Shown: positions 14,469-30,141 of the stretch, one piece after another
How the letters are laid out: each line of letters starts with the position of its first letter
How positions within the stretch are numbered: position 1 is the first letter of the stretch
Origin: Candidatus Poseidoniaceae archaeon
GTDB taxonomy: Archaea > Thermoplasmatota > Poseidoniia > Poseidoniales > Poseidoniaceae
Assembly: GCA_949372655.1 (NCBI GenBank)
Contig: CASIAI010000004.1
Coordinates: 1 to 39,308 of the forward strand
DNA length: 39,308 nt
Direction: 5' to 3'
Made by a program: the position numbers and the translations under genes
The notes under the pieces: model-generated
Database searches by the model: none
Told to the model about the DNA's origin: nothing
Seen by the model: the letters and a program-made list of their open reading frames with translations, nothing else

Positions 14469-17400
14469 TTATTCTCTTTCCATTTCTGCTTCATAGGTTT
14501 GAGTTAGGTAAGTTACAAGTCCAAGTAATCCGGCTGAAGCGATTAATATTATCAATATACTTTCGACATCTCCACCCTGACTTAGCATTACGAATGAAAC
14601 AATCCATGCGATGACCAGGTCGATCGCTCCAAATACTCTCCAACTTTTTCTCAATGTTAGAATTCCACTTACCCAAGCGGTTGTTGAACAAACCATCACA
14701 AAGACGGATAGAATTGCTAAATCACTCCAACCAATTCCAGCAGAGAACAGTAGTATGTGTACTGACCAAAGAGCAGAAGCCAACCAGATACCCTTGTTTT
14801 CTATAATGCTCCATGCCACGAATATTATTGAGCCAATTCCAAGTACTGCAGCTGTAATACTCATTTCAAATTCAGGTAATCCAAGGTAATCATTTGCCCA
14901 AAATAATGTTCCATGAATCGGCAGTGGAAGCATAATCCACGCAATCATAACCACTGCAGGTTGTTGCCATTTCCAACCTCTTTTGATACTGAAGAAAATC
15001 GCTAATAATGCCGCAGGTCCAAAGGAAATTATACTGGCGAAAACCAACCATGCCGACCGACCTCCAGAGCCTCTATGGTCTGCAAGCCCCCGCTTAATTC
15101 GTTCACTCTCGACCCAATCAAAGGCCATCAAGAATCCAAGAATAAGTAACTCAATGAATACCAATGGAATAATCCAATCGATTAGTTCACCATTCAAAGG
15201 GTCAAATTGGAATGGTAGAGGAACTTCTCCTCCAACAATAGCGCAAATAATCCTATCAAGCGCTAATAGGTATACGATGCCTTCCAAAGTATTCGGGATT
15301 CTTAATCCTAAATCATTCCGACCAATTAGACCCACACTCGATAGTATTGTCAACCCTATCGCAATTACAGCCAGATGTTTTGCATCTTCTAACTCGATTA
15401 CAGAATTTGAAATTCTACCCACAATATGCACCAGAACTAGGCCAACCATAGAAATAGCAATTGGCAATTCTATCCCTAAGACGTCGGGCAGTCGCAAACC
15501 AATTTGATTTGCTCTTAATCTAGCCAAGGTAATGAATAATATTGAAACTATTACACAAAAAGATAGAATGATAAATGCAGAACCGGTTGTAAAAGATAGG
15601 AACATGGATGCTAAAATCACAGTAATTAGGAAAGAAATTACAATCACTGGGCGGTGGTGAATATCGCCAACTTCAAGGTCAAACTCACCAATACTACCTG
15701 CTCTCTTAGAACGCTTCCTTTGCTTTTCAGCGAGGTCTAATAATTCGACATCGACCAATTGTAGGTTAGAAGTTTTCTTCAAAACACCAACTCCATCATT
15801 GGTTGAACCTTCTTCAAAACTTTCAGAATGTTGCACTATGAACTCCTCCATATTTTTTCGCTTCTCTTCTATTCTTGACAATCGCTCTTCCTTTTTGGCC
15901 ATAGCTCGCATTCCTGAGCGGAAATCTCCCTGAAGCGATAAATAGGCACCTGAAACGACAAATGCAGTTACTGTTAGCAAGATCACAATACCAGCATCTT
16001 GGACTTGACCCGCAATAATCATCACGACCATCAGCCCGACCGCAGTTAGCGCAGGCGGCAATAACTTCTCTAATTTAGAAGCGCGAATCAAATATAATGT
16101 AATTGCAGCTAAGGTTATAATAGTCAAAATCAGTAAATTATATTGATCGGATAACAAGTTCTCACTTCCCGTAAGAACAGTCATATTCAACGGGTCTAAC
16201 GCAATGATTACGAAAAACCCAGACAGCAAACCCATCATTAAAGTCAATAATTGACCAGGTAACGCTTCAGCCTTTTTCAATTCAAATTCATTGGCTCCAT
16301 CCGCTTTCATTTTATCTGATACATGTAGTAATACTGCGCATGCAGCGACAAGCGTGAGCGCCCATATTGCGGCTTGCCCATAAGTCCAAGAGAGAGCCAC
16401 TACAGAAATACCCCATATAGTCATCAAAGATCTCGGCTTTCCTTTGTGCTTTCCAAGATATACCATTGCAACGTGTCCAGCTAAAAGAGCACATAGAACC
16501 CCATATAGCCCATAGGCAGGTAAAGCGCCAGGTCTTGTTATTGCCCATGTGACAAATAACGTTAGTAGGAAACTTAAATTCCACAGTTGCAGTACTGCTG
16601 AATCTCTCAATCTGGCACTGAACTCTGAAAGGCCAGCAAGCCTAGAGGCGATATTCAACCCTGTTTCACCATGCTCTAAGTTCACCCATACTTGCTGTAC
16701 CAATAGTAAACCCATCCATACTGCTAAGTCATACTCAGCAATTACAATAGGTATGAAGTCAGCGGAAATAAGCCGATTATCTGCATCCGTGGCGAAAAAC
16801 AACAACCAAATCCACGGTGCAATGACAGCAGTTCCAGCAATAGATGGCGAATCTCTTCTTATTGCAAGGTAAGATAATCCTACCCACACTATGCCTTGAG
16901 AAATTAACAGAGTTCTAGACCCAGTACTTTTATCATCCGCAGGAATCAGTAGAGTTAACAAAGTTACAATAATCAGACCACCTGCCCAAAGAACATGGTC
17001 AGAAACAGCCGTTTGATGACGTAGTAAAGCACTAGTGGTGAATAGAGCAGTCATTGCTGCATAGAAACTATAAGGTTCGATATTGAAACTTTCTAGTTCG
17101 GCATCAAATGAGCCCGAAACCATCAATGACAAAGCGCCAAGTAAGAATGGTGCAGGGACTATTATCCATGGTGCAAGACTAGTCCAAGAAACACCCCTTA
17201 CGACAAGATATGAAGCGCTGAACGCTGTTAATAATAAGACTAATTGGGCTAAAGCATATCCAGTTTCTAACCTATTGGCTGCGATGGAGAGTAATGCTCC
17301 TACCATCCCCAATCCAACAGATACCGACCAAAGCCCTGGTCTACCTAGTCCTAATGACTTAAAGGCCGAAGAAAACCAATTATCTGCATCAACAAACTTA

Positions 17401-18374
17401 GCCGCCATAGTAGCATTTGCTGCAGTGATAAATACCATCAATAGGAATAGAATTAAACCATCTTCGAATGGAATTATTTCCAATCCAAAAAAGTTCCAAT
17501 TATCCGAAATTGCATGGGCTCCAATCCACAAATAGGAGACAGCAATACCAAGACTTGCCAGGTTGCCAGAATTTCTTAAAACCGCCAGACTATGAAGCAT
17601 TACAGTCCCTAAAGCAATCATTACTGCTATTCCTAATTCGCCATAAAGAGCGCCAGTTGCACTCCCAATTACTAAGAGGATAAGAGTCGCCTGTGCAGCG
17701 ATTGCATCTTCATCATGCCTTTGTGCTAAGAATATATTCAATCCTACGGCTGATAGAAGAAAAATACCGAGCGCTTGACCTTCTCCAACTGGGAGATTGG
17801 CAAGCCAATCCCATCTCCACATGTCTATAGCAAGGCCATAAAATAATTTCATCGATATTATTACCCAAGTGACTCCTAAAATCCTCATATTCGGATTTGG
17901 GATCCATTTCTCCCCCAGCCACAGACCGACAATTACCATCAATATTAGGCCAGTAGCACTGACAGCAGGAGCCAAGACCGTTCCTACAATAGTTCCAATT
18001 GCAGACCAAATGAATACCATGGCTACTAAAAGGCCAAACCCAAGCCTTTTTTCACCATGAATCGACATATCGGTTACACTATCATTTTCTGGAGCTTTGA
18101 TAACGGAACCATCTTTCTGGATTGCTCCAGCTGTTTTATGTTCATCTCCCCCTCTAGAAAAAATCTCTACGACCTCGCCCATCGCAATATCAATATCCTC
18201 TGGGCTCTCCTCTTCCTCATCTATGGGTGGAGTTTCTTGTCCAGTTTCTTCATTGATTATGAATGAGGAAATATCAAGACCTCTTGCCCTCGAGAAGTCT
18301 TTTTGTCTAAGAATACCATCTCTACTTTTATCACCTGAATCACCCTCATCTTTTCGATTGAGGTCTTCAGACAT
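14469..18374 (-). CDS. Giant polytopic membrane protein, about 35 membrane segments
   Basis: A 1301-residue protein of unknown function. An acidic, hydrophilic N-terminus of about 100 residues is followed by a nearly continuous run of hydrophobic segments; by eye about 23-26 before residue 830 and 12-14 after 920. The two blocks are separated by a soluble, charged region (about residues 835-920) including a probable coiled coil rich in Lys/Glu/Arg (KKEERLSRIEEKRKNMEEF). No catalytic motif, ATPase or glycosyltransferase signature is evident. Large polytopic proteins such as DUF2339 have a superficially similar look, but I cannot show homology. The frame extends to a GTG at 18380; ATG 18374 is preferred. 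Divergent from pckA. Confidence 0.75.
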   Translation of the reverse strand: MSEDLNRKDEGDSGDKSRDGILRQKDFSRARGLDISSFIINEETGQETPPIDEEEESPEDIDIAMGEVVEIFSRGGDEHKTAGAIQKDGSVIKAPENDSVTDMSIHGEKRLGFGLLVAMVFIWSAIGTIVGTVLAPAVSATGLILMVIVGLWLGEKWIPNPNMRILGVTWVIISMKLFYGLAIDMWRWDWLANLPVGEGQALGIFLLSAVGLNIFLAQRHDEDAIAAQATLILLVIGSATGALYGELGIAVMIALGTVMLHSLAVLRNSGNLASLGIAVSYLWIGAHAISDNWNFFGLEIIPFEDGLILFLLMVFITAANATMAAKFVDADNWFSSAFKSLGLGRPGLWSVSVGLGMVGALLSIAANRLETGYALAQLVLLLTAFSASYLVVRGVSWTSLAPWIIVPAPFLLGALSLMVSGSFDAELESFNIEPYSFYAAMTALFTTSALLRHQTAVSDHVLWAGGLIIVTLLTLLIPADDKSTGSRTLLISQGIVWVGLSYLAIRRDSPSIAGTAVIAPWIWLLFFATDADNRLISADFIPIVIAEYDLAVWMGLLLVQQVWVNLEHGETGLNIASRLAGLSEFSARLRDSAVLQLWNLSFLLTLFVTWAITRPGALPAYGLYGVLCALLAGHVAMVYLGKHKGKPRSLMTIWGISVVALSWTYGQAAIWALTLVAACAVLLHVSDKMKADGANEFELKKAEALPGQLLTLMMGLLSGFFVIIALDPLNMTVLTGSENLLSDQYNLLILTIITLAAITLYLIRASKLEKLLPPALTAVGLMVVMIIAGQVQDAGIVILLTVTAFVVSGAYLSLQGDFRSGMRAMAKKEERLSRIEEKRKNMEEFIVQHSESFEEGSTNDGVGVLKKTSNLQLVDVELLDLAEKQRKRSKRAGSIGEFDLEVGDIHHRPVIVISFLITVILASMFLSFTTGSAFIILSFCVIVSILFITLARLRANQIGLRLPDVLGIELPIAISMVGLVLVHIVGRISNSVIELEDAKHLAVIAIGLTILSSVGLIGRNDLGLRIPNTLEGIVYLLALDRIICAIVGGEVPLPFQFDPLNGELIDWIIPLVFIELLILGFLMAFDWVESERIKRGLADHRGSGGRSAWLVFASIISFGPAALLAIFFSIKRGWKWQQPAVVMIAWIMLPLPIHGTLFWANDYLGLPEFEMSITAAVLGIGSIIFVAWSIIENKGIWLASALWSVHILLFSAGIGWSDLAILSVFVMVCSTTAWVSGILTLRKSWRVFGAIDLVIAWIVSFVMLSQGGDVESILIILIASAGLLGLVTYLTQTYEAEMERE

Positions 18375-18535
18375 AGCCACTCTCCCCCAATTACAGAACT
18401 TGAACCCTCTCCTATTTTGTTAAAGAAACAGTTCAATTGAATCAATTTTCAATTTAGCCGAATAGGTGATAATTTGTTATATTTTATACTTAGGGTATAC
18501 GAAAATGACAAAAACGGCCGGCTAAACGAGTTGAC
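18375..18535. promoter_or_regulatory. Divergent intergenic region between the giant membrane protein gene and pckA
   Basis: This 161-base AT-rich spacer must serve both genes. A strong archaeal TATA-like run, TTATATTTTATA, lies at 18477-18488 on the pckA side, 48 bases before its ATG. This would place transcription start near 18510 and give a leader of about 25 bases. GCCGGC at 18517-18522 sits inside that leader. I see no clear TATA box for the leftward gene. Confidence 0.45.
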
Positions 18536-24205: not shown

Positions 24206-24276
24206 TTATTTAATAATTAATTATTATAAATCTCTTGAACTTTCTTTCGATATTATTTAATAATTAATTAATATCG
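24206..24276. repeat. Exact 18-base direct repeat with palindromes upstream of the fumarase fusion gene
   Basis: TTATTTAATAATTAATTA occurs at 24206-24223 and again at 24253-24270, 47 bases apart. The first copy overlaps a perfect 16-base palindrome, TAATAATTAATTATTA (24211-24226). The second lies inside an inverted repeat with 8-base arms, CGATATTA (24248-24255) and TAATATCG (24269-24276). A further TTAATTATTA, the inverted form of the core, is at 24170-24179. The second copy ends 13 bases before the ATG at 24284. Palindromic AT-rich repeats are typical ribbon-helix-helix operator sites, and the gene downstream encodes such a domain; TATA-box function is equally possible. Operator function is inference. 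Confidence 0.5.
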
Positions 24277-24283
24277 CAGGTAT

Positions 24284-25879
24284 ATGTCAAAGCATAGAGC
24301 AGGAGACCGCCGAATAATTAGTATCAGCATACCCGAAGATATCGCTCTGCGATTGGACAAGAAAGTCGGCAAAGGTAAACATGGACGTAGCGCCACAATT
24401 AGTCGAATGATTGAAGAGTCACTCAGCCCGACTATTACTACAACTTCAGTGCGTGACAACCCCTCTAGTAACTTGGAACCTTTATCTGGCAAAATCCGAG
24501 TTGAATCTGATACTATGGGCGAACTAGAAGTCCCAGCAGATATGTATTATGGTTGTCAAACCGCTCGTTCCTTGATTAACTTCGATATTGGGGAAGATAA
24601 AATGCCAAGAGGAGTCATACGTGCTTTTGGAGTTCTAAAACAAGCTGCTGCAAAGACAAATGTGGCTCTTAAGCAATTAGAGCCAGAGGTTGGCGACTTG
24701 ATTATTGCCGCATCCCAAGAAGTTATTCGAGGAGATTTAGACGAACACTTTCCTCTAAGAATATGGCAAACTGGGAGCGGTACCCAATCTAATATGAATA
24801 CCAACGAAGTAATTGCCAATAGAGGGATTGAGATCGCTGGAGGAGTACTCGGGTCAAAGTCTCCAGTACATCCTAACGACCACGTAAATAGGGCGCAATC
24901 CTCCAATGATACATTTCCAACCGCCATGCATATTGCAGGCGCAGAAGCCCTAACTCATGAATTACTACCCAGTCTACGCGAATTACGAAATGCCCTTTCA
25001 GATAAATCGAAGGAATGGTCTGATATTGTCAAAATTGGTAGAACACATCTTATGGACGCAGTACCCCTGACACTTGGCCAAGAGGTATCAGGTTGGGTAT
25101 CTCAATTAGATGCAGACTTAAGGAGAATTGATTTCTCATTAGATGATTTATTTGAGTTAGCATTGGGTGGAACTGCTGTTGGCACAGGGCTTAACACACA
25201 TCCCTTATTTGCTCAAATGGTTGCAGATGAGATAGCCAATATCACCGGTTTAACATTTATCAGTGCTGAAAATAAATTTGCTCAATTAGCCGCTCATGAT
25301 GCAATAGTTGCAGCAAGTGGTGCGTTAAACACCCTCGCAGTTAGTTTGATGAAAATTGCCAATGATATACGCTGGTTAGGTTCAGGTCCACGTTGTGGTT
25401 TAGGGGAATTAGCATTACCAGCAAATGAGCCCGGGTCCTCAATAATGCCAGGTAAAGTGAATCCAACACAAGCCGAAGCGATGACGATGGTTTGTTGTCA
25501 AGTTATGGGCAATAACACTGCTATAACCGTTGGAGGTTCACAAGGGAATTTCGAATTGAATGTATACAAGCCAATGATGATTCATAATCTTCTCCACTCA
25601 ATCCGTTTACTAACCGATGCTTGCCGTTCAATGCGTGAAAACTGTGTCGAAGGTCTTGAGCCAGTAAAGGAAAACATCGCATCACATCTTGAGAATTCAT
25701 TGATGTTAGTCACGGCGTTGAACAATCATATTGGGTATGACAAAGCAGCTAAGATTGCTAAGAATGCACACCAAAAAGGATTGACATTAAGAGAATCTGC
25801 ACTTGAATTGAAGTACTTGACCAATGAAGAATTTGACCAGTGGGTAAGGCCAGAAGAAATGATTGGGCCATCAAATTAA
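24284..25879 (+). CDS. fumC: Class II fumarate hydratase fused to an N-terminal ribbon-helix-helix domain
   Basis: A 531-residue protein of two parts. Residues 9-48 read as a CopG/MetJ-type ribbon-helix-helix: a strand ([11 protein letters not shown]), helix A (IALRLDKKV), a basic turn (GKGKHGRS) and helix B ([11 protein letters not shown]). A Ser/Thr/Pro linker of about 20 residues follows. From about residue 69 a full class II fumarase runs to the end: [68 protein letters not shown] and the signature [11 protein letters not shown] from residue 384. It should hydrate fumarate to malate in the TCA cycle. Ordinary FumC is about 460 residues and lacks this N-terminal domain. No stop or good internal start separates the parts. 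It ends one base before convergent polC. Confidence 0.9.
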
Positions 25880-25880
25880 T

Positions 25881-28800
25881 TCAAAGGAAATCCGATAGAG
25901 ACATTTGCTTAGCACGGTCATTCATGAATAGTGAATCAGTACTATTTGCTAACCATTCAACATTCTGTCTCGTATACACGTCAACACCATATTTCTGCAT
26001 AACGTGTTGAGTTACCTTGATGTATTTTCTAACCGCTCCTTCTGAAACAGTCAACGCCAGATTACCTGAGCATAAATCCCCTTCTGATTTTGATACACCA
26101 ACCGAACTAAGACCTTTACCAGAGGCTTTCTTAGTTTGAATACACTTACCAGAAAGAGGCATTCTTCGATATGAATGCCCACATTTTAAACATCTAACTT
26201 TTTGTCTTGCGAAAGCATTCAAGTTTCCACGTAAGTCAGGTAAAAAGTGAGATCTAATCACACTTGAAGCAACCTTTCTTACATCTACGCCCCTCAATCT
26301 TAGGCCTAATTCTAACTGCCCTTCCATTTTGTCGACCATCGTGTCTAGAGTCTTGTAAGCAGATAGTGGTGGGCCTGTTGAGATTGAATGACAGTTATGA
26401 GTAAATCCATAGCCCCTTACTGCTGCTACACTACCCAATCTCCTTTCAACAAAGTCCATTCTCTCGGAACATGTTTTAGGATGAGGTTGATTCAAAGTCA
26501 TTTCATAGAAGTCTCTTTCATAGAACCAGGCAGAGTCTACATTCAGTGCTTCTTTGTCGACTTCAGTAGGATTGAGCCTCGTGGTTAAAACCAATGGAGC
26601 ATCCATTTGGCCACCGCGATTTGCTGGCAATATATTTCTACTAAAATTCAGTAATCCATCCATAAGCATCATAATTGCATCTTCATCACCATCACAATTC
26701 CTTCTTTTAGAGGCATGGAATAATGGATGTGCATATCCGCCAGAGCAATCGGTCCAACCAATAATTCTAGATAATACTCCACCCGATGTATGCGGTGCTA
26801 ATGCGCATATTAGATGGCCAATTAGGTCATTTGGAGTGGATACATTGTAGTATGGTTCCATTCCATAAAACCTAACTAATAATTCATCTATGAACTTGGC
26901 AGTTCTAACAAAGTAATCAGCTGCATTTTTAGCCACAATGAAATCTTGTGGAAATAACTCTAGCATTTGGTCATCATTTGTTAATTCCTCTCCTTCATAG
27001 TCGTGAGTATAACCTAGATTGACTAAGGTTTGCCAAGATACTTCGACTTCTTTTGGTGTAAAATGGGTCACAGGGACATCACTCATATCGAATCTAATAG
27101 TACCATCTCTAAACACGGGTAAGTCATATTTTGCCCGTAAGATCCCCTTTTCTAGAGGTTCAGGAGTTTGGTCTTTACTGGCAATCTTTTTCATACATTT
27201 TATCACCTTGGGAAGTCGGTCAATACCCAGTTTAATTCTGGCATCTTCAAGAGCAGACTCTATTGGTACAGTCATCAACTCACCTCTTCTTCTACGATTT
27301 TGGGCTAACTCGGTATTGAATTCGGTTCTACCGCCGCATACTTCTCCAGCAATACCTTGGCCTGAATCGTCTTTTTTCCGATGGTGGCAGGTAATGAAAG
27401 GAGACTTTTTCTCACACTTAGTACAGGTTCTAGGTCCCAGCTGAGTACGAATATCTTTCTTTTGAGATGCTACACTCATCAATCTCTGATTACCTCCATT
27501 TAATTCAATTGGGAATAAAATATGAGCCATCGGATTCATTACTCGAGGTGCCGATTTCTCAGGCCTACCCATTCGACTTCCAACTCTTATTGGCGCAGAA
27601 TGCTCCCATCTTAGCGACGATATCTTTCTGATTTGAGCAATGATACCGTCTACAATATAATCATCTTCATGTATTTGAGCCGCTAGATATTTTTCTTTAT
27701 CTCTTGGTCCATCATCAGGAATACTTTCAGCAGCATCCTTGCCAATTTTATCAGTTTCCGCAATATTCATGCCCCTTTGTCTAGCATCAGTTTCTGCAGC
27801 GATTCGATTGGTTGCTCTAACCTTTTCTAACTCCCCCTTGCGTAGATTCTCTTCATCGAGAATAACCTTTGCTTCTCTGAGCTGCTTTATTTTTAGGTTA
27901 AATATTTCATCAGCATTTACTATCTTGATTATTTTTTCACCATCGATAGAAAATCCAAATGCTTCCAGTATAGCAGGCCAACCAGAAGTGATGATAATAT
28001 CATCACCATCATGATGATGAGCTAGACCTAGAATCAATGCTGAACCTTTAGCCAGTCCATGCTGTGATAATGTCCATGCTTCGTCAACAACATCTGAAAA
28101 TATAGGGGCAACAACTTCATTATCAATACCAGGGCAATTATCTAACATTTCCTTTATGATTTTTTCAGGGGGTATTTCATCCATTACCTTGCTCGACCAA
28201 TTTTTGGCACCATCAACAATTCTTAATTGCCTAGTCTCGGGAATTGGAAATGCTTGTAATGAATCATCATAGTTTTTCATTGAATGATTATGAGTGCCCA
28301 GTTTTTCAATTGTGGAACCTTCAATAGTTTTCAAAAAAGAAGGAACCCACTCTATTGGTAGGTCTAAGAACCATGGGTTATGGGGCGGGGGTAGAGATGT
28401 TTTGAATCGCTGAGAAATTTGCTTGGCTTGATTCCAGTTAGGGGTTTGCTTAGTTAAGAATTGATGCCATTTTCTACGGTGTTTAAACTGCTCGTCACCA
28501 TTCTTAATTTCCGATTTATCCAGCCCAGGGACGCCAGGGGGGCAATCCGAAATATTAGTTTCCATGATACTACAGAAGTCTGATACCGCCTCATTAGAGT
28601 CTATTTCTTCAATTAGATCACTCGCCCACCAATCAAATCCATAACCTGCAGGAACCAATGATTTGTTGTTTTCCATGAACTCGCCATATCCAATTACCAA
28701 CTCCCCATTATCCCATACACATCGAACATCAGAAGCGATGGTTGAGAAACTTTTGATATCATCAAGGCGAAGGAAGCGCCCATCTTCTAGCACAACCCAA

Positions 28801-30023
28801 GGCCCTTCCGAATCATCACATGGAGTAATAGCACAGGCCTTCCCTGGGCGTTCAATCTTCATCTGGGTACCAATTGTAATGAAGTCATCCATCGCTGACA
28901 TACAAGCAGGGTTTACCGAAGCCGCTGCAAGTCCAGATGGCCGGCTACGTCCATACCTTAATCGGAAACCACCAGCAGCTTGAGGACTCCCAAATACAGG
29001 TCTTCCAGCGATAATATCATTCATAAATTTAGTAATAGGCTTAACCCTTCTAGTTTTGAATGGATTTTTTTCCGATTCAGTATCTTTTTCTTTTCCTTTA
29101 TTGGCAAACTTTGAGATAAAATCCCATCCAGCTACCTCAAGTCGTTCAGTATGCTTTTGTATTTTTGGGGCTTTGAGGCACAAACCTTCTCCGATGACAA
29201 GTAATACACCGCCCCTTATTCTTGCTTCGTCAATGTTTCTCACTCGCCCATATCCTGCGCATTCAATCCGTTCAGTAGATTCACCATTTACCATCACAGG
29301 GCAAGCACGAACGATTTCTTCTATCTCAGTTGGAGACGGCCGATACTGTAGATTTCCCCGATATAGTCCGAATTCCTCTTTCACCCGTTCAACCTCAGGG
29401 TCTGTAGGTTGATATCTTCCAACATTCAATTCACGTCTAATCATATCAGCGATTAGCACTGCTAATGCCTGAGCAGTACCACCAGCAGCACGAATAGGGC
29501 CGGCGAAATGAACCGAAACAAATTGAGAGCCGTCTAAATTATTCAATAGCCGTACTTCACTGATTCCTTCTAATGGCGCTACCAATACGGCTTCTGTAAG
29601 TATTGCTAATCCAACACGGAGCCCAGCATCTATTGCAGTTACTAAGTCAAATCCTTGTTCTCGAAATCCCTTTGCAACAGATTGACCCATCATAATTGAA
29701 GTAGTTTCTCTGTCGTGGAGTTCTAACATATCTCGTATATCATCTGCTACTTTGTAGTCTCCAAGGTATTCAACAAGTAGTTTTTCAGTTCTACTCGCTA
29801 AGTCAGAAGCTCTGGGTATCTCGACAAATGGCTGATGGTCTAGGTTTAGCGAACGCGCTTGTTCGGCGACCTTATAGGCGTCATCTGCTCTTTCATCCAT
29901 CCATGACTGATAGTTCTCCATCTCTTTTTCTAATCTTGGAATATCTAGTCCAATAAGCGGATTATGAGCGCCCAAACCAGTCGAATTATTATCAGATGAC
30001 ATACCAATAAAACTCCTGTTCAT
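25881..30023 (-). CDS. polC: DNA polymerase II (PolD) large subunit DP2
   Basis: A 1380-residue DP2, the catalytic subunit of the archaeal replicative polymerase PolD. Family strings include FAGPIRAAGGTAQA, QYRPSPTEIEEIVRACPVMVNGE, RYGRSRPSGLAAASVNP and the catalytic double-psi barrel region with NCDGDED (acidic D1111 and D1113). One zinc motif starts at CTKC (C867/C870, followed by CHH and a later Cys), and another at CLKC (C1278/C1281). The final eight residues, QMSLSDFL, form a PCNA-interacting motif. It is about 120 residues longer than Pyrococcus DP2 (about 1260) but no intein motifs are apparent; extra sequence is mainly between residues 470 and 620. GTG 30026, ATG 30023 and ATG 30002 are possible starts. 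The small subunit DP1 is not here. Confidence 0.96.
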   Translation of the reverse strand: MNRSFIGMSSDNNSTGLGAHNPLIGLDIPRLEKEMENYQSWMDERADDAYKVAEQARSLNLDHQPFVEIPRASDLASRTEKLLVEYLGDYKVADDIRDMLELHDRETTSIMMGQSVAKGFREQGFDLVTAIDAGLRVGLAILTEAVLVAPLEGISEVRLLNNLDGSQFVSVHFAGPIRAAGGTAQALAVLIADMIRRELNVGRYQPTDPEVERVKEEFGLYRGNLQYRPSPTEIEEIVRACPVMVNGESTERIECAGYGRVRNIDEARIRGGVLLVIGEGLCLKAPKIQKHTERLEVAGWDFISKFANKGKEKDTESEKNPFKTRRVKPITKFMNDIIAGRPVFGSPQAAGGFRLRYGRSRPSGLAAASVNPACMSAMDDFITIGTQMKIERPGKACAITPCDDSEGPWVVLEDGRFLRLDDIKSFSTIASDVRCVWDNGELVIGYGEFMENNKSLVPAGYGFDWWASDLIEEIDSNEAVSDFCSIMETNISDCPPGVPGLDKSEIKNGDEQFKHRRKWHQFLTKQTPNWNQAKQISQRFKTSLPPPHNPWFLDLPIEWVPSFLKTIEGSTIEKLGTHNHSMKNYDDSLQAFPIPETRQLRIVDGAKNWSSKVMDEIPPEKIIKEMLDNCPGIDNEVVAPIFSDVVDEAWTLSQHGLAKGSALILGLAHHHDGDDIIITSGWPAILEAFGFSIDGEKIIKIVNADEIFNLKIKQLREAKVILDEENLRKGELEKVRATNRIAAETDARQRGMNIAETDKIGKDAAESIPDDGPRDKEKYLAAQIHEDDYIVDGIIAQIRKISSLRWEHSAPIRVGSRMGRPEKSAPRVMNPMAHILFPIELNGGNQRLMSVASQKKDIRTQLGPRTCTKCEKKSPFITCHHRKKDDSGQGIAGEVCGGRTEFNTELAQNRRRRGELMTVPIESALEDARIKLGIDRLPKVIKCMKKIASKDQTPEPLEKGILRAKYDLPVFRDGTIRFDMSDVPVTHFTPKEVEVSWQTLVNLGYTHDYEGEELTNDDQMLELFPQDFIVAKNAADYFVRTAKFIDELLVRFYGMEPYYNVSTPNDLIGHLICALAPHTSGGVLSRIIGWTDCSGGYAHPLFHASKRRNCDGDEDAIMMLMDGLLNFSRNILPANRGGQMDAPLVLTTRLNPTEVDKEALNVDSAWFYERDFYEMTLNQPHPKTCSERMDFVERRLGSVAAVRGYGFTHNCHSISTGPPLSAYKTLDTMVDKMEGQLELGLRLRGVDVRKVASSVIRSHFLPDLRGNLNAFARQKVRCLKCGHSYRRMPLSGKCIQTKKASGKGLSSVGVSKSEGDLCSGNLALTVSEGAVRKYIKVTQHVMQKYGVDVYTRQNVEWLANSTDSLFMNDRAKQMSLSDFL

Positions 30024-30141
30024 CACTCGCTTACCAAGAGCGCCCTATTGTATCGCTCAGTCTACACAACAAAGAGTTATTGTTTGACAAATCAGCAATA
30101 AATAAGGAAAGTTCATTTCATTAGAGCCGAACCATTAGCCG

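Follow-up and report, generated by a model that had tools for sequence, protein, structure and literature searches.

A ribbon-helix-helix domain fused to the class II fumarase of Marine Group II archaea and a candidate operator at its own promoter

Architecture of the fusion gene

The window analysed here, a stretch of 39,308 nucleotides from a Poseidoniales (Marine Group II) archaeon, carries on its forward strand an open frame of 531 codons (24284-25879), which runs without interruption from the ATG at 24284 to the TAA that ends at 25879. The encoded protein joins a ribbon-helix-helix (RHH) domain, through a variable linker, to a class II fumarase that follows it. A basic N-terminal arm (residues 1-8, MSKHRAGD; 24284-24307), in which G7 is invariant and K3, H4 and R5 are each present in at least 50 of 53 sequences, leads into the RHH domain (residues 9-48; 24308-24427), supported by profile matches, predicted fold and selection. 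The Ser/Thr/Pro linker (residues 49-71; 24428-24496) varies strongly, with a mean identity of 14.5% over residues 49-69, and is followed by the fumarase FumC (residues 72-531 and the stop codon; 24497-25879).

The NCBIfam model fumC_II (TIGR00979) matched residues 72-528 with 768.7 bits, above its equivalog cut-off of 664.75, and residues 72-531 represent a complete FumC, which can be aligned over its whole length with the best-matching solved class II fumarase. Fumarases are marked by the superfamily signature GSSxMPxKxNP and by the conserved stretch HPNDHVN...SSNDTFP; both are intact in the translation as stretches of 11 and 17 letters aligned with the solved sequence 6n1m. Pfam recognised Lyase_1, FumaraseC_C and, weakly, RHH_1 and DUF1153 in the full protein and nothing else, and in none of the 46 solved sequences matched at E<=1e-50 did the matched stretch start before query residue 54. 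The fusion of an RHH domain and a fumarase in one frame, as claimed in the preliminary description of this DNA, holds. Directly downstream lies the convergent gene of the DNA polymerase II large subunit DP2 (25881-30026, reverse strand; 1381 residues). Elsewhere in the window, an open frame of 1303 codons (14469-18380, reverse strand) has no Pfam match at E<=0.001.

Measured on the full protein, the Pfam RHH_1 match to residues 12-45 is weak (E 0.12; 12.8 bits against a cut-off of 20.5), and the same stretch scored as an isolated domain reaches 18.0 bits against that cut-off. The assignment is nevertheless secure, since the N-termini of the relatives match the model: among 52 distinct N-termini found, 51 were aligned (one with a GTG start was omitted), and 49 of these 51 matched RHH_1 at E<=1, the best at 3e-5. 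The RHH reading given earlier gains support from this comparison. The PDB profile search at E<=10 returned eight sequences, seven of them nickel regulators (NikR) or EndoAI and one an RNase PH; EndoAI was the best match (E 0.18) and NikR proteins were also among the best. A model predicted by AF2 (mean pLDDT 65) contains strands at residues 4-6 (short) and 9-11 and helices at 18-28 and 35-47, that is, the strand-helix-helix order of RHH proteins. Foldseek matches were weak; at their head stood chains from the MazEF-mt1 complex at E 2.2, followed by VapB12, an antitoxin, at E 3.9.

Pairwise dN/dS within three clades was 0.05-0.11 across RHH residues 9-48 and about 0.03 in the fumarase core, against 0.48-0.86 in the linker; these ratios are rough because synonymous sites are near saturation. 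As judged from these codon comparisons, the RHH part is under purifying selection. The low ratio relative to the linker, together with the invariance of 15 of the 40 domain positions in 53 sequences, argues that the stretch is not a chance frame. Among the 53 codon-aligned genes, the strand positions I11 (53/53), S13 (50/53) and S15 (53/53) are nearly fixed, positions 12, 14 and 16 vary among hydrophobic residues, and at the second helix no sequence departs from G34, R35, S36 and A37. Positions 11, 13 and 15 of the strand are presumably the equivalents of the DNA-facing residues of RHH proteins. The same genome also encodes a stand-alone RHH protein of 129 residues, above the Pfam cut-off (L131:1465-1854; G000:C1 near 37822).

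Distribution and history of the fusion

The fusion was found in 35 of 59 genomes searched, the genome of the window included; three of the 35 are fragments, one of which begins at residue 15 beside masked bases. In the remaining genomes, 17 fumarases begin at residue 68-72 (two of them partial), one fragment is undecidable, and six genomes have no fumarase or, at best, a weak match to the superfamily. A class-wide search detected fumarase at E<=1e-60 in 291 of 339 genomes. The RHH domain profile, run against 389 sampled genomes of the phylum, matched 84 at E<=0.001, and 78 of these belong to Poseidoniales, where the matches lie on fumarases or fumarase fragments, in frames of 357-660 codons bar two fragments. 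The six matches outside Poseidoniales are weak and fall in frames of 81-245 codons. Among 77 other Thermoplasmatota genomes, 26 had a fumarase match at E<=1e-60, and none of the 25 readable N-termini carried the RHH domain.

A tree of fumarase cores with the RHH columns excluded (128 of 200 distinct cores, after near-copies at 95% identity were dropped) implies nine changes between presence and absence of the domain within Poseidoniales. The tree is a quick one in which outgroup branches are long and some forks stay open; the ancestor was read from it rather than reconstructed by a tool. Because the basal Poseidoniales forks carry the RHH domain, the tree reads as an ancestral fusion that was repeatedly lost. 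The preliminary description would have given up the fusion if relatives lacked the N-terminal domain; the 17 domain-less fumarases among the 59 genomes do lack it, and on this tree they are read as secondary losses.

The possibility that RHH-less relatives encode the domain in a gene of its own was rejected, as RHH-less Poseidoniales are absent among the 84 profile-matching genomes of the 389 sampled, with the exception of G193, which holds both kinds of fumarase. A decayed RHH sequence upstream of an RHH-less gene of genus g9 (one gene, L255) was likewise dismissed, the stretch reading as other sequence. Relocation as the general route of domain loss was rejected on account of a shared neighbour: in loci of at least 5 kb, a cyclophilin gene stands within the first two upstream frames of 37 of 59 RHH-bearing and 32 of 53 RHH-less loci.

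Two fumarase genes occur in some assemblies, namely G193 (contigs 9 and 13), G205 (9 and 33) and G145 (6 and 41); G193 has one with and one without the domain, and such assemblies may mix strains. In the mostly RHH-less genus g12, one gene (L254 of G107) has a divergent RHH-like N-terminus with 39% identity to that of genus g14 over 49 residues; it has no Pfam match and could reflect regain, transfer or a retained fast-evolving copy.

A near-unique palindrome before the fumarase gene

Comparison of the DNA upstream of all fumarase types revealed a conserved AT-rich palindrome, TTAATWA-N-TWATTAA, before the RHH-bearing genes. In the window, the promoter-proximal candidate operator (24253-24271, forward strand) contains TTAATAA-T-TAATTAA (24257-24271), an exact instance of the palindrome that lies 12 bp ahead of the ATG, and an upstream candidate copy (TTATTTAATAATTAATTA; 24206-24223, forward strand) is an exact match of the extended pattern TTWWTTAATAANTWATTA. 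The copies at 24206 and 24253 are the only exact matches in their own genome of 1.58 Mb. A scan of the window allowing one mismatch gave four matches, all at 24206-24271, where 0.17 were expected from shuffled sequence. In the 23 loci where the palindrome is exact, 10-13 bp separate it from the start codon, so that the site would overlap the expected TATA box if the mRNA is leaderless. The scan for sigma-type promoters was uninformative, sigma models being unsuited to archaea.

Among the members of the 128-core tree with at least 60 bp upstream, 32 of 56 RHH-bearing promoters hold the palindrome with at most one mismatch in the last 60 bp (1% in shuffles), and all 39 RHH-less promoters differ from it by five or more mismatches. 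Whole genomes were searched in a hand-picked set of known RHH state (41 with and 39 without the domain), which leaves out genera g5, g7 and g14, whose sites had already been seen degraded. The extended pattern occurred exactly in 34 of the 41 RHH-bearing genomes, at 35 sites that are all at the fumarase promoter (31 checked on fetched loci and 4 against gene coordinates; one stands before an assembly gap and one at the end of a contig on which the gene is cut off after 46 codons), and in none of the 39 RHH-less genomes; seven of the 41 have no exact extended site. The backwards pattern, used as control, matched exactly in 13 of the 80 genomes, all of them RHH-bearing members of genus g1, and every match was one of the same sites, one base off.

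With one mismatch allowed, a search of 22 genomes chosen in the same manner (15 RHH-bearing, 7 RHH-less) gave 27 match rows, of which 20 fall at the fumarase promoter and cover all 15 RHH-bearing genomes. The other seven rows, at six places, are scattered, one of them in an RHH-less genome, and as these six places differ in site sequence, no recurring second target was found at this threshold in the 22 genomes. The backwards control gave 32 matches, five at the fumarase site; at this threshold it is the position of the matches and not their number that constitutes evidence, because chance matches in AT-rich DNA are as frequent as true ones. The presence of the pattern at RHH-bearing promoters is moreover partly by construction, since it was derived from them, which leaves its uniqueness and its absence elsewhere unaffected.

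Instead of the palindrome, twelve RHH-less genes (L012, L013, L015, L016, L018, L019, L020, L023, L025, L059, L077 and L133) carry, about 45-15 bp before the ATG, the leader element GTRCGAACNGTGAAGAAGTWC, which is conserved among them apart from single-base differences in a few. In two of its versions the arms seem complementary, which may allow a hairpin to form.

Domain and site do not always go together. The palindrome is degraded, with three or more mismatches, in 18 of the 56 RHH-bearing promoters; those of g5 and g14 belong here, as do some of g7 and g18. The RHH domain of g5 and g18 is canonical despite this, and TTTATTAA/TTTAATAA alone is retained in several RHH-bearing lineages. The RHH sequence of g14 has diverged, several of its promoters (L236-L238, L245) contain an inverted repeat of greater width, TTAATAAC-N11-GTTATTAA, and in another g14 subclade the inverted repeat is a different one. 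The diverged domain and altered repeats would fit co-evolution of domain and site, a pattern noticed after the fact. Joint loss is weak evidence of coupling, because domain and site lie within about 30 bp and one 5' replacement removes both. Across six independent, supported phylogenetic contrasts, the sign test gave 5.3 concordant and no discordant changes at two mismatches or fewer (median p 0.0625) and 3.1 concordant and no discordant changes at one mismatch or fewer (median p 0.25), and is thus not significant at the median p at either threshold.

Among the matches listed by the class-wide search, a single family outside Poseidoniales appeared (f3); it represents the class's other order, which we take from the GTDB taxonomy to be probably Marine Group III. 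Each of the ten f3 fumarases that were read carries another kind of N-terminal extension, some 95 residues long, whose start (YTSIRVTKEV...DLSINSML) has an RHH-like look; searches of PDB, Pfam, PHROG and phage sequences, a low-confidence model and Foldseek gave no RHH support for it, and a profile comparison of the Poseidoniales and f3 N-terminal domains found no link. In the 389-genome sample this domain occurred on the fumarases of seven f3 genomes, with three marginal matches elsewhere. Conserved tandem half-sites TATGCA/TGCATA precede the f3 fumarases (nine loci aligned); in ten loci 30-31 bp separate the end of the tandem from the ATG. The exact pattern TATGCA-N3-TGCATA was found in 14 of 16 genomes at the fumarase promoter only, and with one mismatch at that promoter in the other two. 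Allowing one mismatch, 61 sites were obtained, 27 at the fumarase promoter and 34 elsewhere, against 10 for the backwards control; a few of the 34 have identical sequence in two genomes, and since these 34 fall outside the fumarase promoter, a wider f3 regulon is possible. The fumarase tree separates f3 from Marine Group II and joins it to other Thermoplasmatota (support 86, long branches). The comparison suggests a second, independent enzyme-operator pairing. It is a doubtful though conceivable extension that fumarase turned on two occasions into a repressor of itself with one operator, once in Marine Group II and once in the other order, probably Marine Group III, through different domains and 15-bp palindromes and gated by fumarate or malate at the fumarase site, one gene then being sensor, enzyme and regulator.

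Proposed autoregulation and relation to known enzyme-repressors

Our preferred reading, which we consider probable, is that the RHH-fumarase acts as a negative autoregulator of its own gene through the promoter palindrome, working in the manner of PutA without being a PutA. Computation showed that the two parts are fused, that the RHH domain is under selection, and that a conserved site, nearly unique in the genomes searched, is missing from those of them that lack the domain. As RHH domains dimerize, a fumarase tetramer with four of them could present two DNA-binding dimers; these dimers would bind TTAATWA-N-TWATTAA at the fumarase promoter, and the bound fusion would block transcription initiation. 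Binding should repress, because the palindrome, 10-13 bp from the start codon, shares sequence with the probable TATA box. The outcome would be negative feedback on a single target, in which the level of fumarase limits fumarase synthesis. Gating of DNA binding by a metabolite is possible. DNA binding, repression and the geometry of the tetramer are what we infer. An autoregulatory repressor had already been proposed in the preliminary description, and its proposal gains comparative support from the near-unique palindrome inside the region it had named (24206-24276).

The domain might instead serve dimerization, scaffolding or localisation, for instance as a nucleoid tether, without being a specific regulator. 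RHH domains do dimerize, the RHH domain of PutA mediates PutA dimerization (PMC5293562), the domain is kept in lineages whose palindrome is degraded, and AF2 and Foldseek support for an RHH fold is weak. Class II fumarases are generally known to be tetrameric without any RHH domain, though, and orthologs at the same locus do without it; the near-fixed strand face beside variable core positions and the absence of the exact promoter palindrome elsewhere in the genomes searched also speak against a purely structural module, which we regard as improbable. A frame translated from near residue 70, with the RHH part never made, would agree with the usual fumarase start near that residue and with the RHH-less relatives, which begin there. 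Residues 2-48 are under strong selection at the amino-acid level, however, and the 73-78 codons of domain and linker are open and in frame with the fumarase in 51 of 51 aligned sequences; on these grounds the start-codon artefact was rejected and is almost certainly wrong.

The palindrome could also belong to the core promoter or be recognised by some other regulator, with the RHH domain having a different target or having lost its own. It does sit at the expected TATA-box position of a leaderless gene, TTTATTAA/TTTAATAA persists by itself in several RHH-bearing lineages, and the adjacency of domain and site would permit co-loss without a functional link. Against this, a general promoter element would be expected at other places in the genome as well, while the exact extended palindrome occurs only at fumarase, as do 20 of 27 match rows at one mismatch or fewer, and by parsimony the fused RHH domain is itself the nearest regulator. 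We hold this explanation to be unlikely and retain negative autoregulation by the fusion.

Marine Group II are abundant ocean archaea without cultures, and little is known of their gene regulation. A defined protein with a near-unique site makes in vitro testing possible without culture, and natural orthologs at the same locus that lack both domain and site are ready-made controls. In the literature searched, mostly outside subscription papers and largely by title or abstract opening, no fusion of an RHH or CopG domain with fumarase was found, archaea, Poseidoniales and Marine Group II included. A survey of archaeal fusions (PMC11237513) mentions class 1 fumarate hydratase, and its main text contains neither "fumarase" nor "ribbon".

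Relative to FumC, the protein has a complete enzyme in residues 72-531 and differs by the N-terminal RHH extension, which lies beyond the matched stretches of the 46 solved sequences. With CopG and other RHH_1 regulators, NikR and EndoAI it has in common the domain sequence pattern and the strand-helix-helix order; those proteins are small regulators or antitoxins, whereas here the RHH domain sits on a metabolic enzyme. Enzyme-repressors are few, and PutA is the standard example with an RHH domain. The trifunctional PutA is described as an autogenous repressor with an N-terminal RHH domain (PMC5293562). The fusion shares with it this domain on an enzyme of central metabolism, and the promoter site suggests that autogenous repression may be shared as well. 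The fusion is not a PutA, because the PRODH and P5CDH catalytic domains are absent in Pfam; its enzyme belongs to the fumarate lyase superfamily. It is archaeal, has one promoter site in contrast to the put regulon of PutA, and has no known membrane switch. If our reading is true, the enzyme-repressor principle exemplified by PutA would reach, through a fumarase that has an operator of its own, into the TCA cycle and into an abundant group of ocean archaea.
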